Below, piece by piece: positions 58-17,768 of a stretch of DNA of 64,000 nucleotides. The notes under the pieces are model-generated. The model made no database searches. It worked only from the letters and a program-made list of their open reading frames with translations, and was not told the DNA's origin. The translations under genes and the position numbers were made by a program. Position 1 is the stretch's first letter, and every line of letters begins with the position of its first letter. Origin of the DNA: Paramicrobacterium agarici (lineage in GTDB: Bacteria > Actinomycetota > Actinomycetes > Actinomycetales > Microbacteriaceae); the NCBI RefSeq assembly GCF_002563955.1, contig NZ_PDJE01000001.1, positions 930,001 through 994,000 of the forward strand, written 5' to 3'.

Positions 58-2025
58 GTGCCGAACCCGACAGAAGCCCGATCCGCCGCGAGCGGCGTCA
101 GGATGCGCCCCGCCGTCGCTTCGGCAGCATCCCGTTTCACCTCTCTGGGCTCCGCCGAGGTGGTGCTCACCGACGGGCTCCTCGGTCAGTGGCAGCGCCG
201 CAACCGCGAGCAGACGCTCGTGCACAGCGTTGAACAGCTGCGGCTCGCCGGCAACCTCGACAACTTTCGCGCCGTCATCGGCGGCGCGACGGAGCCGTAC
301 CGCGGCCGCTACCCGTTTCTCGACACCGACGTGTACAAGACCCTCGAGGGCATCGCGTATGAGCTTGCGCGCGCCGACGTAGACGTCTACGCGTCGGTGC
401 GCGACTTCTACGAAGAAGCCATCGACCTGATGCAGCAGGCGCAGCTGGCCGACGGCTACCTCAACACGTACTTTCAGGCGGACTCGATCGACAAGAAGCC
501 CTGGAGCGACCTCGCGTGGGGACACGAGCTCTACTCGCTCGGCCACCTCATTCAGGCGGCCGTCGCCGCGAATCGCCAGCTCGGCGACGCGAGACTGCTC
601 GACATCGCCGTTCGTTTCAGCGACCTGGTCTGGCAGAAGTTCGGCCCAGACACGGAGGAAAAGCTCGCGTTCTGCGGCCACCCCGAGGTCGAGATGGCGC
701 TCGTTGAGCTCTTCCGCGAGACCGACGACCGCCGGTACCTCGAGCTCGCCGACCTCATGGTGCGTCGTCGCGGTCACCAGACGATCGACTCGACGATCTT
801 CACGAGCGAGTACTTTCAAGACCTCGTTCCGTTCGTCAACCTCGACTCCGTCACGGGGCACGCGGTGCGCATGATGTACCTCGCCTCGGGCGCGACAGAC
901 GTCGCCACCGAGACCGGAGCCGATGACCTGAACGCCGCCGTTCTGCACCTCTGGAACGACATGGTGGCCAGCAAGCTGTACATCACGGGAGGCCTCGGTA
1001 GCCGGCACTCAGACGAGGCGATCGGCGACCGCTTCGAACTGCCCAGCGAGCGCGCCTACAACGAGACGTGCGCGGCCATCGCCCTCATGCAGTGGGCATG
1101 GCGGATGCTGCTGAACACGGGCGAAGCCCGGTTTGCCGACATCTTCGAGATTGTGCAGTACAACGCGTTCGCAGTCGGACTCTCTGACGACGGCTGCGCC
1201 TTCTTCTACGACAATCCGCTGCAGCGCCGGGCCGACCACATGCAGCGCTCGGGCTACGAGTCCGACGGACCGCTGCTGCGCCGTGCGTGGTTCGGCTGCC
1301 CGTGCTGCCCGCCGAACATCGTGCGGTGGGTCGCCGAACTGCAAGACCACGTCGCCTTCGTCGGTGACGGTGCCCTGCACATCGCCAACCTCACCGCCGC
1401 CGAGATCAGCCACGACGGGCTCGAGCTGAGCATTGCGACCGCGTACCCGTGGGACGGCGACATCCGACTCGACGTCACGGCAGCGCCGGACGCCGGTCGC
1501 GACATCGCCGTGCGCATCCCGGCGTGGGCGCGCGGTGCGACCGTCGTGCACCGCGACGCGACGAGCGAGGCGGCGGCGGGAAGCTGGGTGCGCCTGGCAG
1601 ACGTCGCCGCGGGCGACAGCATCCGTCTCACCCTGCCGATGCCGGCACGCGCCCACGGGGCAGATCCGAGAGTGGATGCTGCTCGCGGCAGCCTCGCCGT
1701 GGCTCGCGGCCCCCTCGTCTACTGCGCCGAGCAGCAGGACAACGCTGCCGACATCGACACGATCGTCGCCACGCCCGCCGACGTGCGCGCGCTCGAACCA
1801 GAGCGGCGAGACATCGTCGCCTCCGGTCCGAGCGTCGTGCTGCACGGCGCCGTGGAAACGGCGGCGATCGACCCCGCAGAGCTCTACCCAGAGCTCCGCG
1901 ATGACACAGCCCACCCCGACCCGGCTGCACGGGAGGCAGCCCGAACCCACCTCACCCTCGTTCCCTACTTTCAGTGGGGAAATCGTGAGGCCCAGGCCAT
2001 GCGCGTATGGCTGCGCACGGTCTAA
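58..2025 (+). CDS. GH127 beta-L-arabinofuranosidase (DUF1680)
   Basis: Glycoside hydrolase family 127. The characterised HypBA1 of Bifidobacterium longum removes L-arabinofuranose from hydroxyproline-linked beta-arabinooligosaccharides of extensin. The four zinc/catalytic residues known in HypBA1 are all visible at nearly the same numbering: Glu336 and Cys338 in NETCAA, and Cys416-Cys417 in CPCCPPN, which includes the nucleophile. At 655 aa it is full length. No signal peptide is seen, so it should act in the cytoplasm on imported substrate. The GTG at 58 has GTGAGG close upstream; the ATG at 103 (Met16) is an alternative start. The peptide-importer operon begins 58 bp downstream on the same strand, so co-transcription is likely. 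Related DUF1680 families (GH137/GH146-like) are possible, so the exact linkage is inferred. Confidence 0.9.
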   Translation: MPNPTEARSAASGVRMRPAVASAASRFTSLGSAEVVLTDGLLGQWQRRNREQTLVHSVEQLRLAGNLDNFRAVIGGATEPYRGRYPFLDTDVYKTLEGIAYELARADVDVYASVRDFYEEAIDLMQQAQLADGYLNTYFQADSIDKKPWSDLAWGHELYSLGHLIQAAVAANRQLGDARLLDIAVRFSDLVWQKFGPDTEEKLAFCGHPEVEMALVELFRETDDRRYLELADLMVRRRGHQTIDSTIFTSEYFQDLVPFVNLDSVTGHAVRMMYLASGATDVATETGADDLNAAVLHLWNDMVASKLYITGGLGSRHSDEAIGDRFELPSERAYNETCAAIALMQWAWRMLLNTGEARFADIFEIVQYNAFAVGLSDDGCAFFYDNPLQRRADHMQRSGYESDGPLLRRAWFGCPCCPPNIVRWVAELQDHVAFVGDGALHIANLTAAEISHDGLELSIATAYPWDGDIRLDVTAAPDAGRDIAVRIPAWARGATVVHRDATSEAAAGSWVRLADVAAGDSIRLTLPMPARAHGADPRVDAARGSLAVARGPLVYCAEQQDNAADIDTIVATPADVRALEPERRDIVASGPSVVLHGAVETAAIDPAELYPELRDDTAHPDPAAREAARTHLTLVPYFQWGNREAQAMRVWLRTV

Positions 2026-2083
2026 CCCCCTGAAACACCCACCGTGCGGGCAGAGACGCTCGCATCAAAGGAGAGTGAATTCC

Positions 2084-3775
2084 ATGAAAAAACGCAATGT
2101 CGTGCTGGGCCTTGGCCTGGCGGCGGCCCTCGCCCTGACGGGCTGCAGCAGCGGAGGTGACTCCGCCAGTGACGGAGGAAGTTCTGGCGAAGCCGTGAAG
2201 GGCGGAACCCTCCACGTTCTCGCCACGACCGACTTCTCGCACCTCGACCCCGCTCAAGGCTGGGACGGCGGAGTCAACAACTTCTACCGGCTGATCTACC
2301 GTCAGCTGACCATGTTTGCCGGCGGAGATTCGGAGAACCCGACAGAGATCGTTCCCGACCTCGCCACCGATCTCGGTACCCCCAACGAAGACAACACGGT
2401 GTGGACCTTCACGCTGAAGGACGACATCTTCTTCCAGGACGGCACGCCGATCACGAGCGAAGACGTGCGCTTCGGCGTCGAGCGTTCACTTGACCCGGAC
2501 ATCGCCGTCGGCTCGCCGTACGCGAAGATCCTGCTCGACGGCGCAGACGAGTACGAGGGCGTCTACAAGGACGGACACCTCGACTCGATCGAGACGCCGG
2601 ACGACAAGACGATCGTCTTCCACCTGAACCAGTCGTACGCAGACTTCGGCAGCGCCGTCGCACAGCCGGTGTACACGCCGTTCCCCGCCGAGGGAGACGT
2701 GACGACCACCAGCATCGACAAGCAGCCGATCTCGTCTGGACCGTACGTCGTCAGCGAGTACAAGCCGGGCAGCTCAATCGTGCTCGAGCGCAACGAGTAC
2801 TGGGAGCCCGACAGCGACGAGGTGCGCAAGGCGTACCCCGACAAGTTCGTGTGGACGCTCGGCCTCGACAACTCGACGATCGACGAGCGCATGATTGCAA
2901 ACCAGGGTGACGACAAGAACGCCATCTCGGGCATCATTCTCGCGTCGTCGCTGTCGCGCATCCAAGAGCCGTCGATCCAGGAGCGCACCCTCGAGGGTCT
3001 CAAGGGCTGCACGACCTACCTCGCGCTCAACACCACGAAGGAGCCGCTGAACGACCTCAAGGTGCGCCAGGCAATCTCGTACGCCATCGACAAGAAGTCG
3101 GTTCAGACGGCGACAGGCGGACCAGCGCTCACGGACATTGCGAACACGATGCTCCCGCCCACCGTCAAGGGTCACCAGGACTTCGACCTTTACCCGAGCG
3201 AGGGCGGCGAAGGCGATCCCGAGAAGGCCAAGGAACTCCTCGAGGAGGCGGGATACGCGGACGGCTTCGAGCTGAGCCTCGATATGCGCGCAGTTCCCGT
3301 CACGCAAGCTCAGGCCGAGTCGATCCAGGAGTCGCTCGCGAAGGCGAACATCGATGTGAAGCTCAACGTCGTCGACACGGCGAAGTACTGGCAGATCATC
3401 GGTACGCCGAGCCAGCAGACGGATGCTGCCATCGCGGGCTGGTGCCCCGACTGGCCCACCGGTGCGACGTTCCTGCCCCCGCTGTTCGAGGGAAGCCAGA
3501 TCTTCGATCAGGGCAACTCCAACATCGCGCAGTTCGACAACGAAGAGGTCAACAAGCGCATGGATGAAATTCGTGCGATGACCGATGTCGAGGAGGCGAA
3601 CAAGGCCTGGGGCGAACTCGACAAGCAGATCCTCGAGTCGGCGCCCGCCGTGCCCCTGACCTGGGAGAAGGCGGTCACCGTGACGGGCAGCAACATCGCC
3701 AACGCGCACCTTCACGAAGGCTACTCCGGCGGTATCGACTACGCCGTGGTCGGGCTGAAGAGCGTGGACGAGTAG
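2084..3775 (+). CDS. ABC transporter substrate-binding lipoprotein, peptide type (SBP family 5)
   Basis: Family 5 extracellular solute-binding protein (DppA/OppA/NikA), 563 aa. A short signal peptide ends in a lipobox, LALTGC, with Cys21 as the lipidated residue, so it should be anchored outside the membrane. The body shows the usual features: LDPAQGWD near the start, an FTLKDDIFFQDGTPITSEDV stretch, and a lobe with KVRQAISYAIDKKSV. The start at 2084 has AAAGGAG 8 nt upstream. It heads five importer genes in close succession and is followed by proline-specific peptidases and hydroxyproline catabolism. The likely ligand is therefore a proline/hydroxyproline peptide, perhaps arabinosylated. That specificity is inferred from context, not read from the binding site. 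Confidence 0.92.
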   Translation: MKKRNVVLGLGLAAALALTGCSSGGDSASDGGSSGEAVKGGTLHVLATTDFSHLDPAQGWDGGVNNFYRLIYRQLTMFAGGDSENPTEIVPDLATDLGTPNEDNTVWTFTLKDDIFFQDGTPITSEDVRFGVERSLDPDIAVGSPYAKILLDGADEYEGVYKDGHLDSIETPDDKTIVFHLNQSYADFGSAVAQPVYTPFPAEGDVTTTSIDKQPISSGPYVVSEYKPGSSIVLERNEYWEPDSDEVRKAYPDKFVWTLGLDNSTIDERMIANQGDDKNAISGIILASSLSRIQEPSIQERTLEGLKGCTTYLALNTTKEPLNDLKVRQAISYAIDKKSVQTATGGPALTDIANTMLPPTVKGHQDFDLYPSEGGEGDPEKAKELLEEAGYADGFELSLDMRAVPVTQAQAESIQESLAKANIDVKLNVVDTAKYWQIIGTPSQQTDAAIAGWCPDWPTGATFLPPLFEGSQIFDQGNSNIAQFDNEEVNKRMDEIRAMTDVEEANKAWGELDKQILESAPAVPLTWEKAVTVTGSNIANAHLHEGYSGGIDYAVVGLKSVDE

Positions 3776-3779
3776 CGGT

Positions 3780-4745
3780 ATGTCAGCACCTGCGAGTGAA
3801 CTCGCGGGCGGCACGCGCAAGGGGGTGCTGTCGTCGCTCGACGGCGGCAGCTCCCCCAGCCCCGTCAAGCGTGTCGTCGCCGCGCTGAGAAGCACGCCAT
3901 CCGTCGTCGTCAGCTTCGGATGGATCGTATTCATCGTTCTTCTGGCGCTGGCCGCGCCGCTGCTCGAGCAGATCACGGGAATGAGCCCGTACGCCTATCA
4001 CGAGAATGCGATCGACCCCGCGCTCGGCGGTCTTCCCATCGGTCCATGGGGAGGCGTCAGCGCCGAGCACTGGTTCGGCGTCGAGCCGGGAAGCGGTCGC
4101 GACATCTTCATGCGCATCGCGTATGGAGCGCAGGTGTCTCTGACGATCGCCGTGTCGGCGACAATCGTCACCACAACGCTGGGTGTGGTCTTCGGCATGC
4201 TCGGAGGATTCTTCGGCGGCGTGCTCGATCAGCTCATCTCGCGGCTCATGGACTTTCTCATGGCCTTCCCCGCGCTCATCTTCATGATCGCCCTTCTCTC
4301 GGCACTGCCCGCGGGCAACCGGCCGCTGCTGCTCGTGATCGTGCTGAGCATCTTCGCCTGGCCGTACACGGCGCGCGTCATCCGCGGCCAGACGATGTCG
4401 CTGCGCAACGGCGAGTTCGTCGAATCGGCCCGTGCCTCGGGAGCGAGTCCCGCGCGCATTGCGTTCAAAGAAATCTTGCCCAATCTTCGCGGCACGATCA
4501 TCGTGCTCTCGACACTGTCGGTTCCGCAGTACATCGGAACAGAAGCGGCGCTGTCATTCCTTGGTGTCGGCGTCACTCCGCCGACGCCGTCATGGGGTCA
4601 GATGATCGCTTCATCTGTTTCCTGGTACGCGGTCGATCCGATGTACTTTGTGATCCCCGGTCTCTTCCTCTTCTTCACGGTGCTCTCGTTCACCGTTGTG
4701 GGCGACCACCTGCAACGCCAGCTCGACGAGGGGGATGCTGCCTGA
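3780..4745 (+). CDS. ABC transporter permease, DppC type
   Basis: Inner-membrane subunit of the peptide importer, 321 aa, BPD_transp_1 family. A first transmembrane segment lies near residues 40-62, followed by an external loop and a bundle of membrane helices. The cytoplasmic ATPase-contacting EAA loop is visible as ESARASGASPARIAFKEILP (about residues 219-238), and the AALSFLGVGV signature of DppC-like proteins follows. The start ATG lies 4 nt after the binding-protein stop codon. Its stop overlaps the next permease (TGATG), which indicates translational coupling. The order C before B is inverted relative to the classical dppABCDF operon. Confidence 0.92.
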   Translation: MSAPASELAGGTRKGVLSSLDGGSSPSPVKRVVAALRSTPSVVVSFGWIVFIVLLALAAPLLEQITGMSPYAYHENAIDPALGGLPIGPWGGVSAEHWFGVEPGSGRDIFMRIAYGAQVSLTIAVSATIVTTTLGVVFGMLGGFFGGVLDQLISRLMDFLMAFPALIFMIALLSALPAGNRPLLLVIVLSIFAWPYTARVIRGQTMSLRNGEFVESARASGASPARIAFKEILPNLRGTIIVLSTLSVPQYIGTEAALSFLGVGVTPPTPSWGQMIASSVSWYAVDPMYFVIPGLFLFFTVLSFTVVGDHLQRQLDEGDAA

Positions 4746-5740
4746 TGCTGCTTTACATTCTCAAGCGCGTCCTCGCGGGCGTTGTCGTTCTCTTCCTCAT
4801 CACGGTCTTCACGTACACCGTCTTCTTCGTGCTGTCGCCCGATCCGGCCTACATGATCTGCGGCAAGACCTGCACGCCAGATCGCATTGCGGACATCCAC
4901 GAGAAGCTCGGGCTCGACAAACCGTTCTGGGAGCAGATCTGGGTCTTCCTCTCCGGTCTCTTTGTCGGGCGTGACTACGGCGAAGGCGTCAACGCGTTGC
5001 ACTGCGCGGCTCCCTGCCTTGGCTACAGCTTCCAGACAAGCCAGTCGGTGTTCGAGATGATCGTGCAGCGTCTGCCTGTCAGCGCAACGCTCGCCGTCGG
5101 TGCAGCCGTGCTGTGGCTCTTCGCCGGCATCGGCGGCGGTCTGATCGGTGCCGTCAAGAAGGGCACCTGGTGGGACCGCGGCATCATGGTCGTCGCGCTC
5201 TCCGGTATCAGTCTGCCCAACTACTTCGTCGCACTCGCCCTGCAGTATCTTCTCGTGGTCAAGCTGAAGTGGCTGCCGTTCCCGACTGCGGTTCCGTTCG
5301 CAGACGACCCGCTCTTGTGGTTCCAGTCGTACATCATGCCGTGGTTCGTTCTGGCCTTCATGTATGCCGCCATGTACACGCGTCTTGTGCGATCGAACGT
5401 TATCGACACGCTCGGCCAGGGCTTCATTCGCACAGCCAGGGCGAAAGGGCTCGACACCAACGTCGTGATGGGAAAGCATGCTCTCCGTCCGGCCCTGACG
5501 CCGGCGCTGACGCTGTTCGGAATGGACTTCGCCGCGCTGCTCGGCGGCGCGCTCATCACCGAGACGGTCTTCGGGCTGAACGGTGTCGGAAAGCTGACCG
5601 CCGACTCAATCACACAGAACGACCAGCCGGTCATCATGGCGGTGACACTGCTCGCCGCAGCCCTCGTCGTCGTGGCGAACATCGTGGTGGACCTGCTCTA
5701 CTCCGTTCTCGACCCGAGAGTGAGGGTGAAGGCCCAATGA
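4745..5740 (+). CDS. ABC transporter permease, DppB type
   Basis: Second membrane subunit of the peptide importer, 331 aa. It opens with the N-terminal helix typical of DppB/OppB (LLYILKRVLAGVVVLFLITV), then an extracytoplasmic region of roughly 80 residues with several cysteines (MICGKTC, CAAPC). The membrane bundle follows, with the EAA loop FIRTARAKGLDTNVVMGKHA. The external part is longer than in E. coli DppB, a feature I recall from actinobacterial peptide permeases. The start codon overlaps the preceding stop (TGATG) and its own stop overlaps the ATPase start (ATGA), so five genes are tightly coupled. Confidence 0.92.
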   Translation: MLLYILKRVLAGVVVLFLITVFTYTVFFVLSPDPAYMICGKTCTPDRIADIHEKLGLDKPFWEQIWVFLSGLFVGRDYGEGVNALHCAAPCLGYSFQTSQSVFEMIVQRLPVSATLAVGAAVLWLFAGIGGGLIGAVKKGTWWDRGIMVVALSGISLPNYFVALALQYLLVVKLKWLPFPTAVPFADDPLLWFQSYIMPWFVLAFMYAAMYTRLVRSNVIDTLGQGFIRTARAKGLDTNVVMGKHALRPALTPALTLFGMDFAALLGGALITETVFGLNGVGKLTADSITQNDQPVIMAVTLLAAALVVVANIVVDLLYSVLDPRVRVKAQ

Positions 5741-6630
5741 GACGCGCCAAGCAGAAGAGCACAGCGCCCAAGACGGGCTCGCTCAAGACCGTGTCGATTC
5801 CCGTTGAGGGGTCAACGCTGCTCGAGGTGGAGAACCTCGCCGTCACCTTCCCGACCGTGCGCGGACCCGTCGACGTCGTCAAGGACTCGTCATTCCGAAT
5901 TGAGCCGGGCAAGACGCTCGGCATCGTCGGGGAGTCGGGGTCGGGAAAGTCCATGACGTCCCTCGCCATCATGGGGCTGCTGCCCGAGGGCGGAACGGCG
6001 AGCGGCCGCATCCGGTTCTTTGGCCACGACCTGCTCGACCGCAGCGATAACGAGATGCGCCGTGTGCGGGGAGAAAAGATCGCCATGATCTTTCAAGACC
6101 CGCTGTCGTCGCTCAACCCGTACTTCACAGTCGGCATGCAGATCAGCGAGGCCTATCGCGCGCATCGCGGCGGATCGAAGAAGCAGGGCAGACAGATCGC
6201 GATTGACGCGATGCGCCGGGTCAAGATCACCGACCCCGAGACGCGCGTCGACCACTATCCGCATCAATTCTCGGGCGGAATGCGCCAGCGCATCATGATC
6301 GCCATGGCGTTGTGCCTCGAGCCCGACCTCGTGATCGCCGACGAGCCGACGACAGCGCTCGACGTCACGGTGCAGGCGCAGATTCTCGACCTCATGAAAG
6401 AGCTGCAGCAAGAGACGGGGACGGGGATGCTGTTCATTACGCACGATCTCGCCGTCGTCAGCGAGGTGGCCGACGATGTTCTCGTCATGCAGAACGGCGA
6501 GACGCGTGAGCACGCTCCCGTGGCCGAGATCTTCTCGAACCCGCAGTCGTCGTACACGAAGGCGCTGCTCGACGCCGTGCCGCGCATCACCGACGTCGTC
6601 GGAGACATCAAGGGAGTGAGTCATGACTGA
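5737..6630 (+). CDS. ABC transporter ATP-binding protein, DppD type
   Basis: Cytoplasmic ATPase subunit, 297 aa. It shows Walker [10 protein letters not shown]-loop [10 protein letters not shown], signature FSGGMRQR, Walker B DLVIADEP with [11 protein letters not shown], and switch histidine THDLAVV. The C-terminal tail carries the oligopeptide-transporter extension ([10 protein letters not shown]). The first 27 or so residues are a basic N-terminal extension ([14 protein letters not shown]). The start ATG overlaps the upstream stop as ATGA, and the downstream ATPase starts 8 nt before this stop. Confidence 0.93.
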
Positions 6631-7474
6631 CGCTCACACACCGCTGCTGCAGGTTAAGAACTTGACGAAGACGTTCATCACGCAAGGCAGCGGCGTCGTG
6701 TTCTCGGGAAAGAACGAGTTCACCGCCGTCGACGACGTGAGCTTCGACGTGAACCCGCGCGAGACGCTCGCGATCGTGGGGGAGTCGGGCAGCGGCAAGT
6801 CGACGATGGCGCGCATCGCGGCGAAGCTGCTCGAGCCGACGTCAGGCAACGTGCTGCTCGAGGGCAACGACGTCACGCAGGCAAAGGGCAAAGAGCTCGC
6901 GCACTTCCGCTCGAAGGTGCAAGTGGTCTTTCAAGACCCGTTCTCGTCGCTCAACCCGAAGCACACAGTCGAGCGGATCATCATGGCCCCACTCGACTAC
7001 CAGGGCGTGAAACCGCCGAGGAAGCGCCGCGACTTCGTGCGCGACCTCATGGACCGCGTCGGGCTCAACCCCGACCACAGTCAGCGCTATCCTGGGCAGT
7101 TCTCTGGCGGTCAGGCGCAGCGCATCGGCATCGCCCGCGCGCTCGCCGTCGGGCCGAGCCTCGTCGTGTGCGACGAAGCGGTGTCTGCGCTCGACGTCTC
7201 GGTGCAGGCCGTCGTGATCCGGCTGCTGAAAGACCTGCAGCGCGAGCGCGACCTGAGCTACATCTTCATTGCCCACGACCTTGCCGTCGTGCGGCACATC
7301 GCCGACCAGGTCGCCGTCGTGCACAAGGGAAAGATCGTGGAGCAGGGTGATCGCGACAGCATCTTCGATGCTCCGCAGCACGAGTACACGCGCGAGCTGC
7401 TGAGTGCCGTGCCGCAGATCAATCCCGAGTGGGAGGCCGCTCGCGTGGCCAACGCAGAAAAGGAGCGCCAGTGA
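6623..7474 (+). CDS. ABC transporter ATP-binding protein, DppF type
   Basis: Second ATPase of the peptide importer, 283 aa. Walker [10 protein letters not shown]-loop [10 protein letters not shown], signature FSGGQAQR, Walker [18 protein letters not shown] and the H-loop AHDLAVVRH are all intact. The C-terminal [14 protein letters not shown] tail is typical of DppF/OppF. It overlaps the DppD gene by 8 nt and its stop overlaps the GTG start of the prolyl aminopeptidase (GTGA), tying import and peptide cleavage into one transcript. Confidence 0.93.
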
Positions 7475-10232: not shown

Positions 10233-10247
10233 GGGGATGAGAACGAG

Positions 10248-10925
10248 ATGACGACGAGCGCAATTCAGCCCATACCGCAGCAGTCGAGCCTGAGTGATTA
10301 CGTGCAGCAGATGCTGTCGACCGGAATCATCTCGGGTGAGCTGGCGCCGGGGGAGCTGCTGACGGTACCGACCCTCGCGGGCAAGTTCGGTGTGTCGGCG
10401 ACGCCCGTGCGCGAGGCGATGCTGGGACTTGCACGGCGCGGCTTCGTGGAGTCGGTGCGCAACAAGGGCTTTCGCGTCACGAGCGTGAGTGACGAAGAGC
10501 TGTCGCACATCGTGCAGGTGCGGCTGTGGCTCGAGCCGCCCGCCATGTACGAGCTCGCCGCCGATTTTCCTGAGGCACGCGCTGCCGAGCTGCGCACGCT
10601 GGCCGACGAGATCGTGGCCGGTGCCGCGGGCGGAGACCTTGTCGCGTACCTGCAGTCGGATCACGCGTTTCACATGGCGCTTACGCGGCTGCTCGGCAAT
10701 CACACGCTCGCCGAGATGGTGGCAGACCTGCGCTCGCGCACGCGACTCGTGGGACTCGCGTCGATGATCAAGACCCAGCGGCTGCAAGACTCGGCCGCTG
10801 AGCACGTCGAGTTGCTCGACTTCTTGGCGGCGGGCGACCAGGAGGGTGCGCGTGACCTCATGGCCAAGCACATCCACCACACGCTCGGTTGGTGGTCGGG
10901 TAAGCCCGAGGATGCTGTCGAGTGA
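10248..10925 (+). CDS. GntR family regulator (FadR/FCD type)
   Basis: Transcription factor of 225 aa. The N-terminal winged helix-turn-helix is visible as ISGELAPGELLTVPTLAGKF followed by GVSATPVREAMLGLARRGFV. The C-terminal FCD ligand domain has the Asp/His pattern for a metal-bound carboxylate ligand (for example DHAFHMALTRLLGNHTL and the terminal ARDLMAKHIHHTL). It lies 15 nt after the Xaa-Pro aminopeptidase gene, at the end of the import/peptidase operon and upstream of the hydroxyproline oxidation genes. It probably controls one or both using hydroxyproline or an intermediate; a candidate operator is at 11170-11186. Confidence 0.9.
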   Translation: MTTSAIQPIPQQSSLSDYVQQMLSTGIISGELAPGELLTVPTLAGKFGVSATPVREAMLGLARRGFVESVRNKGFRVTSVSDEELSHIVQVRLWLEPPAMYELAADFPEARAAELRTLADEIVAGAAGGDLVAYLQSDHAFHMALTRLLGNHTLAEMVADLRSRTRLVGLASMIKTQRLQDSAAEHVELLDFLAAGDQEGARDLMAKHIHHTLGWWSGKPEDAVE

Positions 10926-10968
10926 CGTGCGACGCGAGCATGGTTCGTTGTGACGTGGTCGCCCCGCC

Positions 10969-11027
10969 GGCCGTTGCCACTCGATGCCGCTTTGACGCCG
11001 CGAAAGCAGCGCCCAGTGGCAACGGCC
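10969..11027. repeat. Long inverted repeat (13-bp arms), possible terminator
   Basis: GGCCGTTGCCACT (10969-10981) pairs perfectly with AGTGGCAACGGCC (11015-11027). Inside, GCTTT and AAAGC can extend the hairpin after an internal loop. It lies in the 285-bp gap behind the GntR gene and probably ends the first operon, although no T-tract follows. The layout resembles the palindrome at 17705-17768, whose arms also contain TGCCA. The rest of the gap (11028-11169) shows no ORF I would support. Confidence 0.6.
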
Positions 11028-11169
11028 CCGTCGCAGCTGGGTGCGGAGCGGCTCACCCTCCGCGGTGAAGCGGGTTTCGCGGCGCGTCCCACAGAACCCG
11101 GGCCGCGGCACGTCGTACAGGACCCGGGCAATGCGCGCGGAAGTGCGCTTCACTTTTCCCGCAATGTGT

Positions 11170-11186
11170 GACATATTACATATGAC
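11170..11186. promoter_or_regulatory. Candidate operator/promoter of the hydroxyproline oxidation operon
   Basis: GACATAT-TAC-ATATGAC is an imperfect inverted repeat (6 of 7 pairs) 24 nt upstream of the start at 11211. It is AT-rich in a GC-rich neighbourhood and overlaps likely -10 sequences (CATATT/TACATA). It is a plausible site for the adjacent GntR regulator. This is inferred from symmetry and position only. Confidence 0.45.
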
Positions 11187-11210
11187 AGAGCTCACGATGA
11201 GGAGGGCGAC

Positions 11211-12419
11211 ATGGGCAACCGCGGAGCGACGTACGACGTTGCTGTGATCGGTGCCGGCATTGTCGGCGCGGCGATCGCGCGCACCCTTAGCCGCGACGGC
11301 GTGCGCGTCGTCGTTCTCGAGCGCAGTGCGGCTGCATCGGGCACGAGCGGTCAGGGCGAGGGGAACCTCCTCGTCTCAGACAAAGCTCCCGGCCGAGAGC
11401 TCGAGTTGGCTCTGCACGCCAATCGTCGCTGGGCGGAGCTCGCCGACGAGCTGGCAGACGAGCTCGGTCCTGACTTTCCAGACATCGAATTCGAGCGCAA
11501 GGGCGGCCTGGTCGTCGCGACGACCGAAGCGGGCGCCGAGCCGCTGAAGAACTTCGCCCGCTCGCAAGCCACGGCCGGTGTCGATGCGCAGATCATCGCG
11601 CCGAGTGAGGCGCTGCAGCTCGAACCAGACCTCAATCCCGCCATCACCGCAGCTGTCGCATACCCGCAGGACGCCCAGGTGCAGCCGGTCATCGCGACAG
11701 AAGCGCTGCTGGCGTCTGCGCGTCGTGCCGGCGCAGAGGTGCGCTGCGGCGTCGACGTGCTCGGCAGCATCCGCTCTGCCTCGGGCGAGCTCACGGGCGT
11801 GCAGACGACGGCGGGCGCCGTGACAGCATCCACCATCATCAACGCCGCGGGCCCGTGGGCCGGCGATGTCGCATCGCGGCTCGGCGTCACGCTGCCCGTG
11901 CGCCCGCGCCGCGGCGTCGTGCTCGTGACCACGCGCATGCCGCACCGCATTTTTCGCAAGGTGTACGACGGCGACTACTTCGGCGCGACGCAGTCGAACG
12001 ATGCTGCCCTGCAGACCTCGAGCGTCATTGAATCGACGGCAGCCGGCACCGTGCTCATCGGGTCGAGCCGCGAGCAGATCGGCTTCGATTCGCGGCTGCG
12101 CGCCGAGGTGATCCGCGAGATCGCCGCCAAGTCGACGTGCGTGTTCCCCTTCTTGCGCGACGCGAGTGTCATGCGCGCGTACGGCGGTTTTCGCCCGTTC
12201 ATGCCCGACCACTTGCCCGTGATCGGACCAGACCACCGCGTCGCGGGACTCTGGCATGCGACAGGCCACGAGGGCGCCGGAATCGGGCTCTCGGTCTCGA
12301 CCGCAGATCTCGTGAGCGACCTCTTCGCGGGGCGTGCGCCCGAGCTGAATGCTGCCGCGTTCAGCGTCGCGCGCCCGACGCTCGCCGCAGCACTCGCCGC
12401 AGAGGAGGGCGCCGCATGA
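11211..12419 (+). CDS. FAD-dependent D-hydroxyproline dehydrogenase, DadA-like subunit
   Basis: D-amino-acid oxidase fold (DAO family), 402 aa. The N-terminal dinucleotide fold is VIGAGIVGAAIARTLSRDG, with ERS at the end of the second strand. Substrate-domain motifs include YPQDAQVQP and a C-terminal HATGHEGAGIGLSVSTA. Next come a small [2Fe-2S] protein and a second FAD oxidoreductase with ATGA overlaps. This three-subunit layout is that of cis-4-hydroxy-D-proline dehydrogenases and opine/amino acid oxidases. It should oxidise cis-4-hydroxy-D-proline to pyrroline-4-hydroxy-2-carboxylate. AGGAGGGCGAC precedes the ATG. Confidence 0.85.
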   Translation: MGNRGATYDVAVIGAGIVGAAIARTLSRDGVRVVVLERSAAASGTSGQGEGNLLVSDKAPGRELELALHANRRWAELADELADELGPDFPDIEFERKGGLVVATTEAGAEPLKNFARSQATAGVDAQIIAPSEALQLEPDLNPAITAAVAYPQDAQVQPVIATEALLASARRAGAEVRCGVDVLGSIRSASGELTGVQTTAGAVTASTIINAAGPWAGDVASRLGVTLPVRPRRGVVLVTTRMPHRIFRKVYDGDYFGATQSNDAALQTSSVIESTAAGTVLIGSSREQIGFDSRLRAEVIREIAAKSTCVFPFLRDASVMRAYGGFRPFMPDHLPVIGPDHRVAGLWHATGHEGAGIGLSVSTADLVSDLFAGRAPELNAAAFSVARPTLAAALAAEEGAA

Positions 12420-12802
12420 CCGCGTACCGCCTGCCTCCGCAGAACGATCCAGCCGAGCGCGTCGAGAACGAGCGCGTGCACATCACTGTCGACGGCGAGC
12501 AACTCAGCGGCCCTGCCGGCAGCACGATCGCCGGCGTGCTGCTCGAGAACGGCCGCGACTCGTGGCGCACGACGAGCCGTGACCGTCGCCCGCGCGGCAT
12601 CTTCTGCGGCATCGGCGTCTGCTACGACTGCATTCTGCAGGTGGGCGACGAGCGCGACGTGCGCGCGTGCCAGCGGCGTGCGTGCGAGGGTGACGTCGTG
12701 TCGCTGCAGAACGAAGGGCGGCCGGATGCTGCGGGCAGCCCGCGCCCCGGCAGCGACAGTTCGGCCCCAGCATCCGAGTCGATCGCGGGGGAGGCATCAT
12801 GA
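12416..12802 (+). CDS. [2Fe-2S] small subunit of the hydroxyproline dehydrogenase
   Basis: A 128-aa ferredoxin-like protein (Fer2_4 family). The cluster ligands are visible as CGIGVCYDC near residues 65-73 and a later Cys in RACQR. The N-terminal half has the beta-grasp pattern HITVDGEQLSGPAGSTIAGV. The last 30 residues (SPRPGSDSSAPASES) are low-complexity and probably unstructured. It overlaps both flanking flavoprotein genes by 4 nt. It should carry electrons between the FAD subunits, or from them to a downstream acceptor. Confidence 0.85.
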   Translation: MTAYRLPPQNDPAERVENERVHITVDGEQLSGPAGSTIAGVLLENGRDSWRTTSRDRRPRGIFCGIGVCYDCILQVGDERDVRACQRRACEGDVVSLQNEGRPDAAGSPRPGSDSSAPASESIAGEAS

Positions 12803-14259
12803 CCGTCGTCGTCATCGGAGCCGGTCCCGCCGGACTCGCCGCGGCCAGCGCAGCGCTGCGCGCCGGAGCCGATGTGACACTGCTCGACTCGTCCGACCAG
12901 CTTGGCGGGCAGTTCTGGCGGCACCTCCCCGACTCCGCGCACGCTGCGAAGCAGCACGTGCTGCACCACAAGTGGGGAACGTTCGAGGCGCTTGCGCGCG
13001 AGGTCACGCAGCATCCGTCGTGCTCTGTCGTGGCGAACGCGCAGGTGTGGCTCCTCGAGCAACGAGCTGCCGGGGCGCCCCGCGTGCACGCGCACGTCGG
13101 CCCCGTGGACTCGGGCGGACGCGAAACGCTCACGCTCGACCCCCACGCTCTCGTTCTCGCGACCGGTGCGCACGACCGTACGCTGCCGTTCCCTGGCTGG
13201 ACGCTGCCCGGCGTGTACACGGCCGGAGCGGCGCAGGCCCTCGCGAAGTCAGAGCGAATCGCGCTCGGCTCGCGGGCCGTGGTCGCCGGAGCAGGGCCGT
13301 TTCTGCTGCCCGTCGCCCAGTCGCTTGCGCTCACGGGCGCCCGCGTTCTCGGCGTCTACGAGGCGACGACCACGGCCGCTCTCCTGCGCGGCTGGGGCGC
13401 GAAGCCCTGGCAGCTCACGGCCGCCGTCGGAAAGATGCCCGAGCTCGCCGGATACGTGGCGGGTCACGTGCGTCACAGCATCCCGTACCGCACCGGGCGC
13501 GCCGTCGTCGAGGCGCACGGCACCGATCGCGTCGAGGCCGTGACGATCGCCCGCGTCGACGAGACCTGGGCGCCGATCGCGGGAACCGAGACGACGATCG
13601 AGACGGATGCTGTCTGCGTCAGCCACGGCTTCACACCGCGCCTCGAGCTCGCGATCGCCGCGGGTTGCACGATCAGCGCCGACCGCTTCGTCGAAGTCGA
13701 CGCGCGTCAGCAGACCAGCATCCGCGGTATCTACGCAGCGGGGGAACTCACGGGCATCGCCGGCGCGGACGCCGCGCTCGCAGAGGGTGCTCTCGCCGGA
13801 CACTTCGCGGCGAACGGCCCGCGCTCGGCGCACATCGGACGCGCCGCTCGCGCCCGCGACCGCTTCATCGACTTCGGCACCAGACTCGACGCCGTGCACT
13901 CGCCGCGCCGCGGGTGGACGCAGTGGCTGCGCAACGACACGACGATCTGCCGGTGCGAAGAAGTGACGAACGGCGAGCTCACCAGCATCCAGTCGCAAAC
14001 CGCGTCGTGCGGACTGCGCTCCCTCAAACTCTCGACGCGCGCGGGCCTCGGCATCTGCCAGGGCCGCATCTGCGGGCGCAACGTCGAGGAGCTGCTCGGC
14101 GAGGACTTCGCCGACGGCGTCACAACCGACCGCAGACCCATCGTCTCCCCGGTGCGCATCGGCGATCTCGCCGATGCTGCCGCCGCGGAACCTCCAACCG
14201 AAGACCCGCACACAGCAGGCGATCTTCACCCACGAGAAACACTGAAAGGTACGTCATGA
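12799..14259 (+). CDS. FAD/NAD(P)-binding oxidoreductase subunit with BFD-like [2Fe-2S] domain
   Basis: Large subunit (486 aa) of the probable hydroxyproline dehydrogenase. A GxGxxG fold opens the protein (VIGAGPAGLAAASAALRAG), followed by LATGAHDRTLPFPGW and a second dinucleotide fold around AVVAGAGPFLLPVAQSLA. The C-terminal third has the cysteine pattern of a BFD-like iron-sulfur domain: CRCEEVTNGEL, then GLGICQGRICGRNVEELL. The same layout occurs in HcnB/OoxA-type and D-hydroxyproline dehydrogenase alpha subunits. Both ends overlap neighbours by 4 nt. Confidence 0.85.
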   Translation: MTVVVIGAGPAGLAAASAALRAGADVTLLDSSDQLGGQFWRHLPDSAHAAKQHVLHHKWGTFEALAREVTQHPSCSVVANAQVWLLEQRAAGAPRVHAHVGPVDSGGRETLTLDPHALVLATGAHDRTLPFPGWTLPGVYTAGAAQALAKSERIALGSRAVVAGAGPFLLPVAQSLALTGARVLGVYEATTTAALLRGWGAKPWQLTAAVGKMPELAGYVAGHVRHSIPYRTGRAVVEAHGTDRVEAVTIARVDETWAPIAGTETTIETDAVCVSHGFTPRLELAIAAGCTISADRFVEVDARQQTSIRGIYAAGELTGIAGADAALAEGALAGHFAANGPRSAHIGRAARARDRFIDFGTRLDAVHSPRRGWTQWLRNDTTICRCEEVTNGELTSIQSQTASCGLRSLKLSTRAGLGICQGRICGRNVEELLGEDFADGVTTDRRPIVSPVRIGDLADAAAAEPPTEDPHTAGDLHPRETLKGTS

Positions 14260-15170
14260 GCAAGAAGTTCGACCTCGGAGGCGTCGTCGTCGCGACAACG
14301 CTTCCCTTCACAGAAGACGCGAGCGCCCCGGCCGGCCTCGCCGTTGACTACGACAAGTTCGCCGAGCACTGCAATTTTCTGATCGAGAACGGATGCCGCG
14401 GCGTCGGCCCCAACGGCTCGCTCGGAGAGTACTCGTCTCTGACGGACGAGGAGCGCCGCAAGGTCATTCAGGTTGCCGTTGAGGCCGTCGGAGGCCGCGG
14501 CATCGTCGTCGCGGGCGTTCACGGTGTCGGCTGGCACCAGGCTGTGCAGTGGGCCGAGTACGCGAAGGAAGACGGGGCCGACGGCGTTCTGTGCCTGCCG
14601 CCCACCATTTACCGCGCCAACCGCGACGAGGTTATTGAGCACTACACCAAGGTCAACGAGGTGGGCCTGCCGATGATGCTCTACAACAACCCCCTCGACA
14701 CCAAAGTCGACCTGACGCCCGACATCATCGCCGAGCTGTCGAAGCTCGAGAACGTCGTGGCCGTCAAGGAGTTCTCGACAGACATTCGCCGCGTCATGGA
14801 CATTCAGGACGCGTGCGACATCGACGTTGTCGCGGGAGCCGACGATCTGCTCTTCGAGTCGCTCGTCGCGGGCGCCGTGGGCTGGTTCGCCGGATACCCG
14901 AACGTGTTCCCCAAGGAATCGGCCGAGATCTGCGAGCTGGTGTACGCGGGAAAGATCGACGAGGCGCGCGACCTCTACCGCGAGCTGCGCCCGGTGTTCT
15001 ACTGGGACTCCGAGACCGAGTTCGTGCAGGCGATCAAGCTGTCGCAGGATGTTGCGGGCAACACGTTCGGCGGCAAGACCCGCCCGCCGCGCGGCCCGCT
15101 GTCGGCCGCGCAGGTCGAGGCCGTCACGCGTGACACCAAGCGCGCCCTCGACTACATCGCGAGCCGCTAG
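14256..15170 (+). CDS. DapA-family pyrroline-4-hydroxy-2-carboxylate deaminase
   Basis: Class I aldolase-like protein of the dihydrodipicolinate synthase family, 304 aa. The Schiff-base Lys is in VVAVKEFSTD and the partner Tyr in MMLYNNP. The substrate loop GPNGSLGEYSSLTDEER differs from the DapA GTTGES motif, as expected for a non-lysine pathway member. In this position the predicted reaction is deamination and dehydration of pyrroline-4-hydroxy-2-carboxylate to 2-oxoglutarate semialdehyde. The start overlaps the preceding stop by 4 nt and the racemase gene follows after 10 nt. A role in lysine synthesis is unlikely given the operon. Confidence 0.85.
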   Translation: MSKKFDLGGVVVATTLPFTEDASAPAGLAVDYDKFAEHCNFLIENGCRGVGPNGSLGEYSSLTDEERRKVIQVAVEAVGGRGIVVAGVHGVGWHQAVQWAEYAKEDGADGVLCLPPTIYRANRDEVIEHYTKVNEVGLPMMLYNNPLDTKVDLTPDIIAELSKLENVVAVKEFSTDIRRVMDIQDACDIDVVAGADDLLFESLVAGAVGWFAGYPNVFPKESAEICELVYAGKIDEARDLYRELRPVFYWDSETEFVQAIKLSQDVAGNTFGGKTRPPRGPLSAAQVEAVTRDTKRALDYIASR

Positions 15171-15180
15171 GGTTTCACAC

Positions 15181-16182
15181 ATGAGATCAAGCCGTGTGAT
15201 CACCGCGGTCGATTCACACACCGAGGGGATGCCGACGCGCGTCGTGACCGGCGGCGTCGGTGTCATCCCTGGCGCGACCATGAACGAGAAGCGCCTGCAC
15301 GTCATCGAGCACATGGATGACGTGCGGCAGTTTCTCATGAACGAACCGCGCGGTCACGGCGCCATGAGCGGGGCGCTGCTGCAGCCGCCCACGCGGGACG
15401 ACTGCGACTGGGGCATCGTCTACATCGAAGCATCCGGCTGCCTGCCCATGTGCGGTCACGGCACGATCGGCACCGCGACGGTGCTCGTCGAGACCGGCAT
15501 GGTCGAGGTCGTCGAGCCGGTCACGACGATCAGGCTCGACACCCCGGCCGGACTCGTCATCGCCCGCGTTGACGTGACCGATGGGCATGCAGACTCCGTC
15601 ACGATCGAGAACGTGCCGAGCTTCGTCGACAGAATGGATGCTGTCGTCACGGTGCCCGGCCTCGGCGACGTTCCGTATTCCCTCGCGTTCGGCGGCAACT
15701 ACTACGCCATGGTGAACCTCGACGACGTCGGGCTGCCCTTCGACCGCTCACGTCAGCAGGAGATCCTCGACGCGGGGCTTGCAATCATGAGCGCGATCAA
15801 CGAGACCGCTGCCCCGCAGCATCCGTCGATCTCTGGCGTCGACCACTGCCACCACGTCGAGTTCATCGCCCCCGGTTCGACGGCGCAGCACTCGCGCCAC
15901 GCCATGGCGATTCACCCCGGGTGGTTCGACCGGTCGCCGTGCGGAACGGGAACGTCCGCACGCATGGCCGAACTCTGGGCGCGCGGCGAACTCACGCTCA
16001 ACACCGACTTCGTCAACGAGTCGTTCATCGGCAGCCGCTTCGTCGGGCGGCTGATCGCCGAGACCGACGTCGCGGGCACGCCGGCCGTCATTCCGACGAT
16101 CACCGGCCGCGCCTGGGTCACCGGCATGGGGCAGTACATGCTCGACCCGACCGACCCCTTTCCGACCGGATTCGTCTTCTAG
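15181..16182 (+). CDS. 4-hydroxyproline 2-epimerase (proline racemase family)
   Basis: Converts trans-4-hydroxy-L-proline to cis-4-hydroxy-D-proline, the first step of the pathway. The 333-aa protein has both acid/base cysteines: Cys91 in MCGHGTIG and Cys254 in SPCGTGTSA. This separates it from trans-3-hydroxyproline dehydratases, which have Thr at the second site. The racemase opening DSHTEGMPTRVV is intact. A proline racemase function cannot be excluded by sequence, but the neighbouring oxidase, deaminase and semialdehyde dehydrogenase argue for hydroxyproline. Confidence 0.88.
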   Translation: MRSSRVITAVDSHTEGMPTRVVTGGVGVIPGATMNEKRLHVIEHMDDVRQFLMNEPRGHGAMSGALLQPPTRDDCDWGIVYIEASGCLPMCGHGTIGTATVLVETGMVEVVEPVTTIRLDTPAGLVIARVDVTDGHADSVTIENVPSFVDRMDAVVTVPGLGDVPYSLAFGGNYYAMVNLDDVGLPFDRSRQQEILDAGLAIMSAINETAAPQHPSISGVDHCHHVEFIAPGSTAQHSRHAMAIHPGWFDRSPCGTGTSARMAELWARGELTLNTDFVNESFIGSRFVGRLIAETDVAGTPAVIPTITGRAWVTGMGQYMLDPTDPFPTGFVF

Positions 16183-16192
16183 GAGGAACCAC

Positions 16193-17689
16193 ATGAGCAC
16201 CGAAAACACCGACGTCGACCAGATCGCGCAGAACGCCGACCGCGCGTTCCGCGAGCTCTCGCACATCGAACCGGCCGTGCGCGCCCGCGCGATCGTCGCG
16301 GCGGCAGACGCCCTCGAGGCGAACGCCGACGCGCTCGTGCCGATCGGCATGCGCGAGACAGGGCTCGCCGAGGCGCGTCTGCGGGGCGAACTCAAGCGCA
16401 CGGCCGTGCAGCTGCGCATCTTCGCCGACACGGTCGTCGACGGCTCGTATCTCGACGTGCGCATCGACGCGGCCGACCCGGACTTCGCTCTCGGGCCGCG
16501 GCCTGACGTGCGCAGGTATCTGCAGCCGGTGGGCCCCGTGCTCAACTTCGCGGCGAGCAACTTTCCGTTCGCGTTCTCTGTTGCCGGCGGCGACACGGCA
16601 GCCGCGCTCGCCTCGGGCTGCTCGCTCGTTGTCAAGACGCACTCAGGGCACCCCGAACTCTCGGCCGAGACCGCGCGCGTGATCTCAGAGGCGCTCGTCG
16701 GCGCAGGCCTGCCCGAGCACGTGTTCCAGACGATCTCGGGCCAGCAGCAAGGCGTCGACCTTCTCAAGCATCCGCTCATCGCCGCAGGCTCATTCACGGG
16801 GTCGACAAAGATCGGGCGGATGCTGGCGGACATCGCCGCCGCGCGCCCGAAGCCGATCCCGTTCTATGGCGAACTCGGCAGCGTCAACCCGGTGTTCGTC
16901 ACCGAGCAGGCGCTCGCCGAGCGCGCCGACGATATCGCGGCGGGCCTCGTGACGAGCGTCGGAGGTTCTGCCGGGCAGCTGTGCACGAAGCCCGGATTCG
17001 TGTTCGTTCCCGACGCGGCGCCGCTCGAGCAGGGTATCGCGACGGCAGCATCCGGAGCCGAACCACATCGCATGCTCAACCCGCGAATCGCCGACGGCTA
17101 CGCGGACCGCCGCGATGAGATCCTCGCTACCGACGGGGTGCGGGCGATCGTCGAGGGCACGGTTTCACGGGATGCTGACGGGCAGGGCTGGGTGACGCCG
17201 ACGATCGTCGTGACCGATGCAGCGACGCTTGCCGCGCAGCGCGACCGTCTGCTCGACGAGAGCTTCGGACCGCTCACGGCGCTGGTGCAGTACTCGGCGC
17301 GCGATGACCTGGGGGCGATTGCCGAGGAGCTGTTCCCGGGCAACCTGACCGCCACCGTTCATCATGGCGACGGTGAGGCGTCCGACGCGCTGCGCGACCT
17401 CGTCGCGGTGCTCTCGGAGACCGCAGGACGTGTGCTGTTCAACGGATGGCCGACGGGCGTCGCCGTGACACCGGCGATGCAGCACGGTGGTCCGTGGCCC
17501 GCGACGACGAATGACTCAAACACCTCGGTGGGCACGGCAGCGATCACGCGCTTCGTGCGCCCCGTGGCGTACCAGAACGCGCCGCAGGCTCTGCTGCCCG
17601 AGCCGTTGCAAGACGCCAACCCGTGGAACGTGCCGCAGCGGCACGCTGCGGCCGGCGAGTCGGCTCACTGGGGTGACGCCGCCCGCTGA
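16193..17689 (+). CDS. 2-oxoglutarate semialdehyde dehydrogenase (ALDH family)
   Basis: Oxidises alpha-ketoglutarate semialdehyde to 2-oxoglutarate, the last step of hydroxyproline breakdown. The 498-aa aldehyde dehydrogenase has Glu227 in ELGSVNP and nucleophile Cys264 in GQLCTKPGF. The QLCTKPG context and GSFTGSTKIGR match the KGSADH subgroup. A strong AGGAGG site lies 5 nt before the ATG, and the gene follows the epimerase after 10 nt. It ends the plus-strand block; the long palindrome at 17705 follows. Confidence 0.9.
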   Translation: MSTENTDVDQIAQNADRAFRELSHIEPAVRARAIVAAADALEANADALVPIGMRETGLAEARLRGELKRTAVQLRIFADTVVDGSYLDVRIDAADPDFALGPRPDVRRYLQPVGPVLNFAASNFPFAFSVAGGDTAAALASGCSLVVKTHSGHPELSAETARVISEALVGAGLPEHVFQTISGQQQGVDLLKHPLIAAGSFTGSTKIGRMLADIAAARPKPIPFYGELGSVNPVFVTEQALAERADDIAAGLVTSVGGSAGQLCTKPGFVFVPDAAPLEQGIATAASGAEPHRMLNPRIADGYADRRDEILATDGVRAIVEGTVSRDADGQGWVTPTIVVTDAATLAAQRDRLLDESFGPLTALVQYSARDDLGAIAEELFPGNLTATVHHGDGEASDALRDLVAVLSETAGRVLFNGWPTGVAVTPAMQHGGPWPATTNDSNTSVGTAAITRFVRPVAYQNAPQALLPEPLQDANPWNVPQRHAAAGESAHWGDAAR

Positions 17690-17704: not shown

Positions 17705-17768
17705 CAATCGGGTGCCAACTTTTCCCACGAAACGTAGCGTTCTTATGGGCAAAGTTGGCACCCGATTG
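17705..17768. repeat. 64-nt palindrome with perfect 18-bp arms
   Basis: CAATCGGGTGCCAACTTT (17705-17722) pairs perfectly with 17751-17768, and CCCA/TGGG (17724-17727 with 17746-17749) extends the stem after one mismatch. It lies 15 nt after the dehydrogenase stop codon in a convergent gene gap, so it could end transcription from both sides. There is no T-tract, and the stem is longer than a terminator needs. A REP-like dispersed palindrome is an alternative. Confidence 0.65.

Follow-up and report, generated by a model that had tools for sequence, protein, structure and literature searches.

Why should a gene for an arabinosidase-type enzyme head a run of genes for peptide uptake, proline peptidases and hydroxyproline breakdown? 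The question is raised by a 64,000-nucleotide stretch of Paramicrobacterium agarici DNA (C1:930001-994000, referred to in the following as the window), part of a genome that forms a single contig of 3.23 Mb. At 58-17689 of the window, 15 genes on one strand encode a GH127 protein, a peptide-type ATP-binding cassette (ABC) importer, peptidases, a GntR regulator and enzymes for hydroxyproline catabolism. A sequence-only reading of the window had proposed that cells take up arabinosylated hydroxyproline peptides, strip the sugar inside and use both parts. This proposal was supported by synteny and by blocks of the same kind adjoined by arabinose genes, and the locus is, in our view, probably a system for utilization of peptides from plant hydroxyproline-rich (extensin-type) glycoproteins. 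The observations behind this view are the genes themselves, their active-site residues, synteny, a shared promoter motif and the modelled fold of a neighboring peptidase.

Gene content of the block

Start sites were re-read and the proteins were scanned against Pfam, and the expected family was recovered at 58-17689 for every function that the sequence-only reading had named. The first gene (58-2025) encodes a GH127 beta-L-arabinofuranosidase-like protein with three Pfam GH127 domains above cut-off (PF07944, PF20736 and PF20737, at 279.5, 41 and 78.8 bits). When the protein was aligned with solved chains of HypBA1, residues E336, C338, C416 and C417 fell on the metal/nucleophile residues, which we take to be E338, C340, C417 and C418 and to have those roles in HypBA1. 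E320 fell on the acid/base residue, presumably E322 of HypBA1, a position occupied by Q in chain 7exu. All five residues were unchanged in 18 aligned orthologues, in agreement with the claim that the metal and catalytic residues of HypBA1 are present. No hydrophobic stretch was apparent by eye at the N-terminus, and the enzyme is therefore probably located in the cytoplasm. A search of the P. agarici genome with GH127 gave a single match at E <1e-20.

Next come the five genes of the importer, encoding a family-5 solute-binding lipoprotein (2084-3775; SBP_bac_5, 272.6 bits), DppC-like and DppB-like permeases (3780-4745, BPD_transp_1; 4745-5740, BPD_transp_1_N and BPD_transp_1), and DppD-like and DppF-like ATPases (5737-6630, ABC_tran; 6623-7474, ABC_tran and oligo_HPY). 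The Pfam scan found no sugar-type binding protein in the importer of this block, only the SBP_bac_5 type. These are followed by an S33 alpha/beta hydrolase (7471-8790; Abhydrolase_1), an M24 protein resembling Xaa-Pro aminopeptidases of the aminopeptidase P type (8787-10232; Peptidase_M24, AMP_N) and a GntR/FCD protein (10248-10925; GntR, FCD), the probable local regulator. The proposal of prolyl and Xaa-Pro aminopeptidases thus held at the level of the S33 and M24 families. It is less certain for the specific activity of the S33 enzyme, which gave only weak matches, far under cut-off, to the NCBIfam models for prolyl aminopeptidase and proline iminopeptidase. Its best solved relative was the plant protein AT3g61540 (structure 8jgn, 351 bits), and the enzyme appears to be prolyl-aminopeptidase-like.

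The remaining genes form one operon that holds a family for every step from trans-4-hydroxy-L-proline to 2-oxoglutarate, as had been claimed (11211-17689). It comprises the three subunits of a D-hydroxyproline dehydrogenase-like enzyme, namely a DAO-fold subunit (11211-12419; DAO, 235 bits), a 2Fe-2S subunit (12416-12802; Fer2_4) and an FAD/NAD subunit (12799-14259; Pyr_redox_2, with Fer2_BFD slightly under cut-off), followed by a DapA-family deaminase (14262-15170, alternative start 14256; DHDPS, 171 bits), a 4-hydroxyproline epimerase of the proline racemase family (15181-16182; Pro_racemase, 417 bits) and a 2-oxoglutarate semialdehyde dehydrogenase-like protein (16193-17689; Aldedh). Within the racemase family, a Cys/Cys pair marks racemases and epimerases, and a Cys/Thr pair marks dehydratases. 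Both catalytic cysteines were visible in the aligned epimerase, and its identification as a trans-3-hydroxyproline dehydratase was set aside on this basis. The protein did not reach the cut-off of the NCBIfam 4-hydroxyproline epimerase model (NF010578; 338 versus 376 bits), nor those of the proline racemase and dehydratase models; block proteins scored under cut-off with several NCBIfam models for named enzymes. A long inverted repeat at 17705-17768, with about 18 paired bases by eye, lies directly past the last gene and is a possible terminator.

The description of these genes as a single block was correct in content and strand, but less so as a transcript. The gap of 285 bp between the GntR and dehydrogenase genes (10926-11210) holds its own operator-like site and a terminator-like hairpin at 11133-11148 (13 such hairpins occurred in the stretch, versus 8.1 expected), and there are therefore probably two transcription units, the first with GH127, importer, S33, M24 and GntR genes, and the second with the hydroxyproline genes.

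Conservation of the gene neighborhood

Co-occurrence of GH127, importer and epimerase genes within the Microbacteriaceae was analyzed in a sample of 249 genomes. GH127 matches of any kind were found in 97 of these, and 19 carried a distinct GH127 clade at ≥685.6 bits (≥54% identity), all remaining matches scoring ≤505.5 bits. Block regions from the 18 other clade carriers and from the window were compared by gene calls and tblastn, the latter adding genes in G085, G187 and G217. The complete block was present in 16 of the 19 carriers, our own genome included. In G053 the hydroxyproline genes were divergent, and S33 and aldehyde dehydrogenase genes were not found in the compared region; in G079 and G003 there were no hydroxyproline genes within 40 kb, epimerases being found elsewhere in the genome. 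A strong epimerase match was detected in 19/19 clade carriers versus 35/230 other genomes (Fisher 1.3e-14, for related genomes that are not independent). This count took 54 of 57 matching genomes, excluding G104, G118 and G242, which had only weak matches (≤249 bits). Absence of GH127 from this position in close relatives had been set beforehand as a refuting outcome; three of the four other sampled congeners (G199, G148 and G085) retained it there, and in the fourth, G001, the sole GH127 was a distant one (385 bits) and neither an epimerase nor a peptidase was matched.

Two genomes outside the clade, G179 (C11, locus L113) and G101 (C135, L115), had a different GH127 (40% and 38%) adjoined by ABC importer genes and a hydroxyproline operon. 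The G179 importer has an SBP_bac_8/1-type binding protein and that of G101 has two permeases. Here the two functions have been brought together another time, and the importers of these loci are possibly for free hydroxyproline-arabinoside instead of peptides.

A scan of named genomes was then evaluated, using an 18-sequence profile (G115 left out) and the best 80 of 84 relatives; the closest named matches of the window were from Paramicrobacterium and Microbacterium sp. MPKO10. The block was missing around six of the 80, which were distant GH127s (34-41%); two of these lay on stretches <9 kb, and one of the six had a 28% ATPase match. The other 74 belonged to the clade, and 70 loci were compared after setting aside four that were short on the right. 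These 70 are not independent: at least seven are shared with the family sample, and many come from Kribbella, Nonomuraea and Streptomyces. All five importer genes stood beside GH127 in 69/70 loci, L158 being the one in which they were not all found, and the binding-protein gene was immediately 3' of GH127 in 72/72 testable loci. An S33 gene was present in 63/70 loci and an M24 gene in 55/70, with one or the other in 69/70 and both in 49/70. The gene set spans 21 named genera, among them the plant-associated Clavibacter and Plantibacter. This synteny rules out a chance neighborhood: the conserved core is GH127, a peptide-type importer and a proline peptidase, and in some lineages this core has the pathways for hydroxyproline and arabinose as partners.

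The arabinose partners were seen in two genomes. In G003, genes of the araB-araD-araA type, for FGGY kinase, class-II aldolase and L-arabinose isomerase, come after the block, and this araA was the only match in that genome. In Arthrobacter sp. MYb227 (L138), FGGY kinase, class-II aldolase, AraA, aldose-epimerase and LacI-type genes are divergent from GH127. Through these neighbors, the GH127 clade is linked to the use of arabinose, which is the sugar moiety of the predicted substrate. An araA gene was found in 21/21 genomes checked; the only match in P. agarici, at C1:695581, is distant from the block. A peptide-linked arabinoside would be the simplest substrate to explain the core together with both partners.

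Other genes were found at some of the named loci. In L144, L150, L153 and other Nonomuraea and Streptomyces loci, M24 is followed by a DapA-family gene (43-53% to that of the window) and sometimes by an epimerase-like gene; the DapA-family product may be either a deaminase or a 2-keto-3-deoxyarabonate-type dehydratase. The Streptosporangium and Streptomyces loci L139, L172 and L176 have extra distant GH127-family genes adjacent or close to the block.

The divergent peptidase gene and the operator-like site

A further 18 kb to the left of the window was examined, with small genes scanned in part. The gene directly left of the window (C1:927303-929600, minus strand, 765 residues) is divergent from GH127, which rules out that GH127 belongs to an upstream sugar operon, an arrangement that would have counted against the sequence-only reading. 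The divergent protein has a hydrophobic N-terminus by eye and an LPXTG anchor (Gram_pos_anchor, 23.7 bits, cut-off 20). It carries an HExxH motif with downstream Tyr and Glu; H304, E305, H308, Y344 and E351 (P0001 numbering) were invariant in 58 aligned sequences. A fold search with the full-length model was dominated by a C-terminal beta-trefoil, and the catalytic part was assessed on a model of a short homologue instead. The best match of this modelled domain was to Pro-Pro endopeptidases (PPEPs), whose fold it shared. A sequence search of the PDB with the peptidase gave no match at E 10. We predict that the gene encodes a PPEP-like, wall-anchored metallopeptidase that may cleave Pro-Pro bonds. 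In its predicted catalytic fold and motif, the protein resembles PPEP-1, PPEP-2 and PPEP-3 (structures and the parts of PMC12828418 available to us), but it is only 15-19% identical to them and is large, multidomain and wall-anchored, with an extra N-terminal domain and the beta-trefoil. Metallopeptidases of plant pathogens act, or have been proposed to act, on extensin, according to excerpts of PMC9266454.

Farther left are an SMP-30 gene, an alanine/sodium symporter-type gene, a second Cys/Cys proline-racemase-family gene and an ornithine-cyclodeaminase-family gene. The racemase, cyclodeaminase and symporter genes lie at L002:10641-15252 (window -7360 to -2749), the symporter gene with the same operator-like site as the block, and perhaps constitute a second pathway, for an imino acid or a hydroxyproline isomer, under the same regulator. 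G182 has a similar pair close to its hydroxyproline operon. A ROK regulator and a galactitol-type phosphotransferase (PTS) permease lie at L002:7041-10590, left of the racemase genes; the permease occurs in two congeners too, and the ROK regulator in one of those.

The operator-like site is a palindrome that recurred in intergenic regions of four congeners. Its core, RTGTNACAY, occurred five times in 82 kb, four of them intergenic (before the symporter, peptidase, GH127 and dehydrogenase genes) in a stretch with a non-coding share of about 11% by gene calls. Exact copies of the 14-base form, RTGTNACAYATYAC, occur four times in the 3.23-Mb genome (C1:926243, 929661, 929962 and 941166), all inside 15 kb, at GH127, the hydroxyproline operon (11166-11179, plus strand), the symporter gene and the divergent peptidase gene; the form was derived from these four sites and attests exclusiveness, not discovery. 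With one mismatch allowed, there were ten matches in the genome, three of them elsewhere, and one with a reversed-pattern control. In the family loci, 16/16 other carriers with the dehydrogenase gene in the stretch had the core at its promoter, and 11/18 had it at that of GH127. In the 80 named loci, it was found at 27/75 GH127 rows (one a partial second copy), 18/25 dehydrogenase genes and 1/4 peptidase genes, compared to 0/475 block-internal and 20/783 other genes. Without congener L130, the GH127 and dehydrogenase counts were 26/74 and 17/24 versus 20/783 (Fisher 4e-18 and 7e-20, uncorrected for kinship). The GntR protein of the block is likely the regulator acting at this site, judging from sequence. 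Most GH127 promoters of the named loci, including those of Nonomuraea and Clavibacter, lack the core, and regulation therefore differs in those lineages.

Proposed route and its alternatives

From these observations we infer the substrate of each protein, the uptake of peptides with their sugar on rather than bare ones, the pairing of regulator and operator, induction and the order of the following steps. Outside the cell, the wall-anchored PPEP-like metallopeptidase would cut proline- and hydroxyproline-rich protein, and the family-5 importer would bring in hydroxyproline peptides with beta-L-arabinofuranose still attached. Cytoplasmic GH127 would then strip the arabinose, which would otherwise impede peptidases, and the S33 and M24 enzymes would free hydroxyproline and proline. 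The second operon would convert trans-4-hydroxy-L-proline to 2-oxoglutarate, the released arabinose would enter the araBDA route, and one operator with the GntR regulator would control both operons and the peptidase gene. Import of glycopeptides is the boldest step, suggested by the probably cytoplasmic GH127 and the peptide-type importer in 69/70 loci. The chances appear evenly balanced for a widespread actinobacterial route of sugar-on import by a dedicated family-5 importer and cytoplasmic deglycosylation, with a PPEP-type surface cutter of Hyp-Hyp bonds in arabinosylated extensin in some lineages and, in Microbacteriaceae, one hydroxyproline-sensing GntR.

Several points weigh against extensin-type peptide utilization as set out here. 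GH127 enzymes have further substrates, and the sole NCBIfam match of our GH127 was aceric acid hydrolase (NF049879; 376.9 bits, below the 950 cut-off). Family-5 binding proteins carry non-peptide ligands too. Extensin hydroxyproline bears three or four arabinoses, which GH43 or GH121 enzymes would have to trim. On the peptidase side, Pfam ATLF scored 19.9 bits on our protein, below its 27.4 cut-off, which the Bifidobacterium homologue P0007 exceeded (48.6 bits), and in Foldseek alone S-layer and TssM chains ranked over PPEP-2 (E 5.5e-4). The peptidase adjoins the block in 4/70 named loci, and homologues occur in 3/396 genomes of the order, our own included; the peptidase is therefore non-essential. 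Hydroxyproline genes of any kind were found in 34/70 loci and a dehydrogenase subunit in 25/70. The named stretches stop some 10 kb to the right of GH127, close to the expected start of the hydroxyproline operon, and these two counts and that of the peptidase loci are lower bounds. For the 36 loci without nearby hydroxyproline genes, a dehydrogenase homologue was present somewhere in 36/36 genomes, many being <52% identical and possibly another amine oxidase. Neither S33 nor M24 was found at the Arthrobacter locus. Finally, the 9-base core was not over-represented in its stretch (5 versus a Markov mean of 2.9, largest 8), and it was missing at 48/75 GH127 promoters and 3/4 peptidase genes of the named loci.

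The target may not be extensin itself. Peptide hormones as well as extensins bear O-arabinosylated hydroxyproline (PMC8012813, in part), and arabinosylated CLE-type signaling peptides, arabinogalactan-protein or algal glycopeptides would be handled by the same mechanism, which sequence alone cannot separate from one acting on extensin. We consider such targets rather unlikely; the PPEP-like outer peptidase would best fit consecutive runs of (hydroxy)proline.

Alternatively, arabinose chains could be cut off outside, bare (hydroxy)proline peptides imported, and GH127 used on co-imported beta-arabinobiose or residual sugar. This would correspond to the HypAA/HypBA2/HypBA1 route of Bifidobacterium longum, in which, according to the parts of PMC7263609 at hand, the sugar is removed extracellularly by GH43 and GH121 enzymes and beta-arabinobiose probably reaches cytoplasmic GH127 through a sugar importer. 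In G562, a peptidase relative has another GH127 (35%) and a symporter-like gene (by eye) at a distance of about 3 kb, which would suit this arrangement. Against it, the importer adjoining GH127 is of the peptide type in 69/70 loci and no sugar-type binding protein was found in our block; this argues weakly, since an outside arabinobiosidase of GH121 may exist, and we consider external removal improbable.

To our knowledge, the hydroxyproline of collagen carries no arabinose. Scavenging of collagen or general proline peptides, with GH127 in the same operon merely for an unrelated arabinoside, is very improbable given the binding-protein gene directly after GH127 in 72/72 loci and the araBDA-type neighbors in two genomes, although the proline peptidases and hydroxyproline genes would suit collagen equally, collagenase peptidase domains were among the matches of the peptidase fold search, and Shewanella HypR regulons include secreted collagenases (PMC5343134, in part).

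The proposed glycopeptide route resembles known systems in its parts. It shares with B. longum an intracellular GH127 for arabinofuranosides from plant hydroxyproline-rich glycoproteins, but that bacterium removes sugar outside and has a proposed sugar-type ABC importer for the disaccharide, in place of the peptide-type importer, proline peptidases and hydroxyproline genes seen here; the sections of PMC7263609 and PMC5928203 at our disposal describe no hydroxyproline catabolism. Xanthomonas euvesicatoria (XeHypBA1/BA2/AA) also has a HypBA1 homologue for extensin-type arabinosides, and a prolyl oligopeptidase pseudogene is reported to adjoin xehypAA, but its enzymes have signal peptides, and no importer or hydroxyproline pathway is described in the excerpts of PMC6085000. 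The HypR regulon of Proteobacteria likewise combines a GntR regulator with epimerase, dehydrogenase, deaminase and semialdehyde dehydrogenase, but relates to collagen rather than glycosylated plant protein, and neither a glycosidase nor an oligopeptide importer appears in the portions of PMC5343134 consulted. A Latescibacteria GH127 was assigned to extensin, with arabinose uptake by an ABC transporter listed (PMC4454575, in part), and a study of proline-racemase neighborhoods noted peptidase families beside some members, the sections available containing no glycos or DUF1680 terms (PMC4113996). In what was accessible of the open-licence literature, we recognized no account that joins GH127 to either a peptide importer or the catabolism of hydroxyproline, consistent with the claim that the combination is not a described system.

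In plant cell walls, extensins and glycoproteins related to them form a tough component, and in the open-licence literature accessible to us, use of their sugar and use of their hydroxyproline have been described only separately. The gene set yields a complete route that can be tested. It also points to a group of importers as candidates for glycopeptide uptake, to a subfamily of GH127 predicted to act on a peptide-linked substrate, and to what may be the natural role of one group of PPEP-like peptidases at the cell surface, and it would serve as a genomic marker of glycoprotein use.

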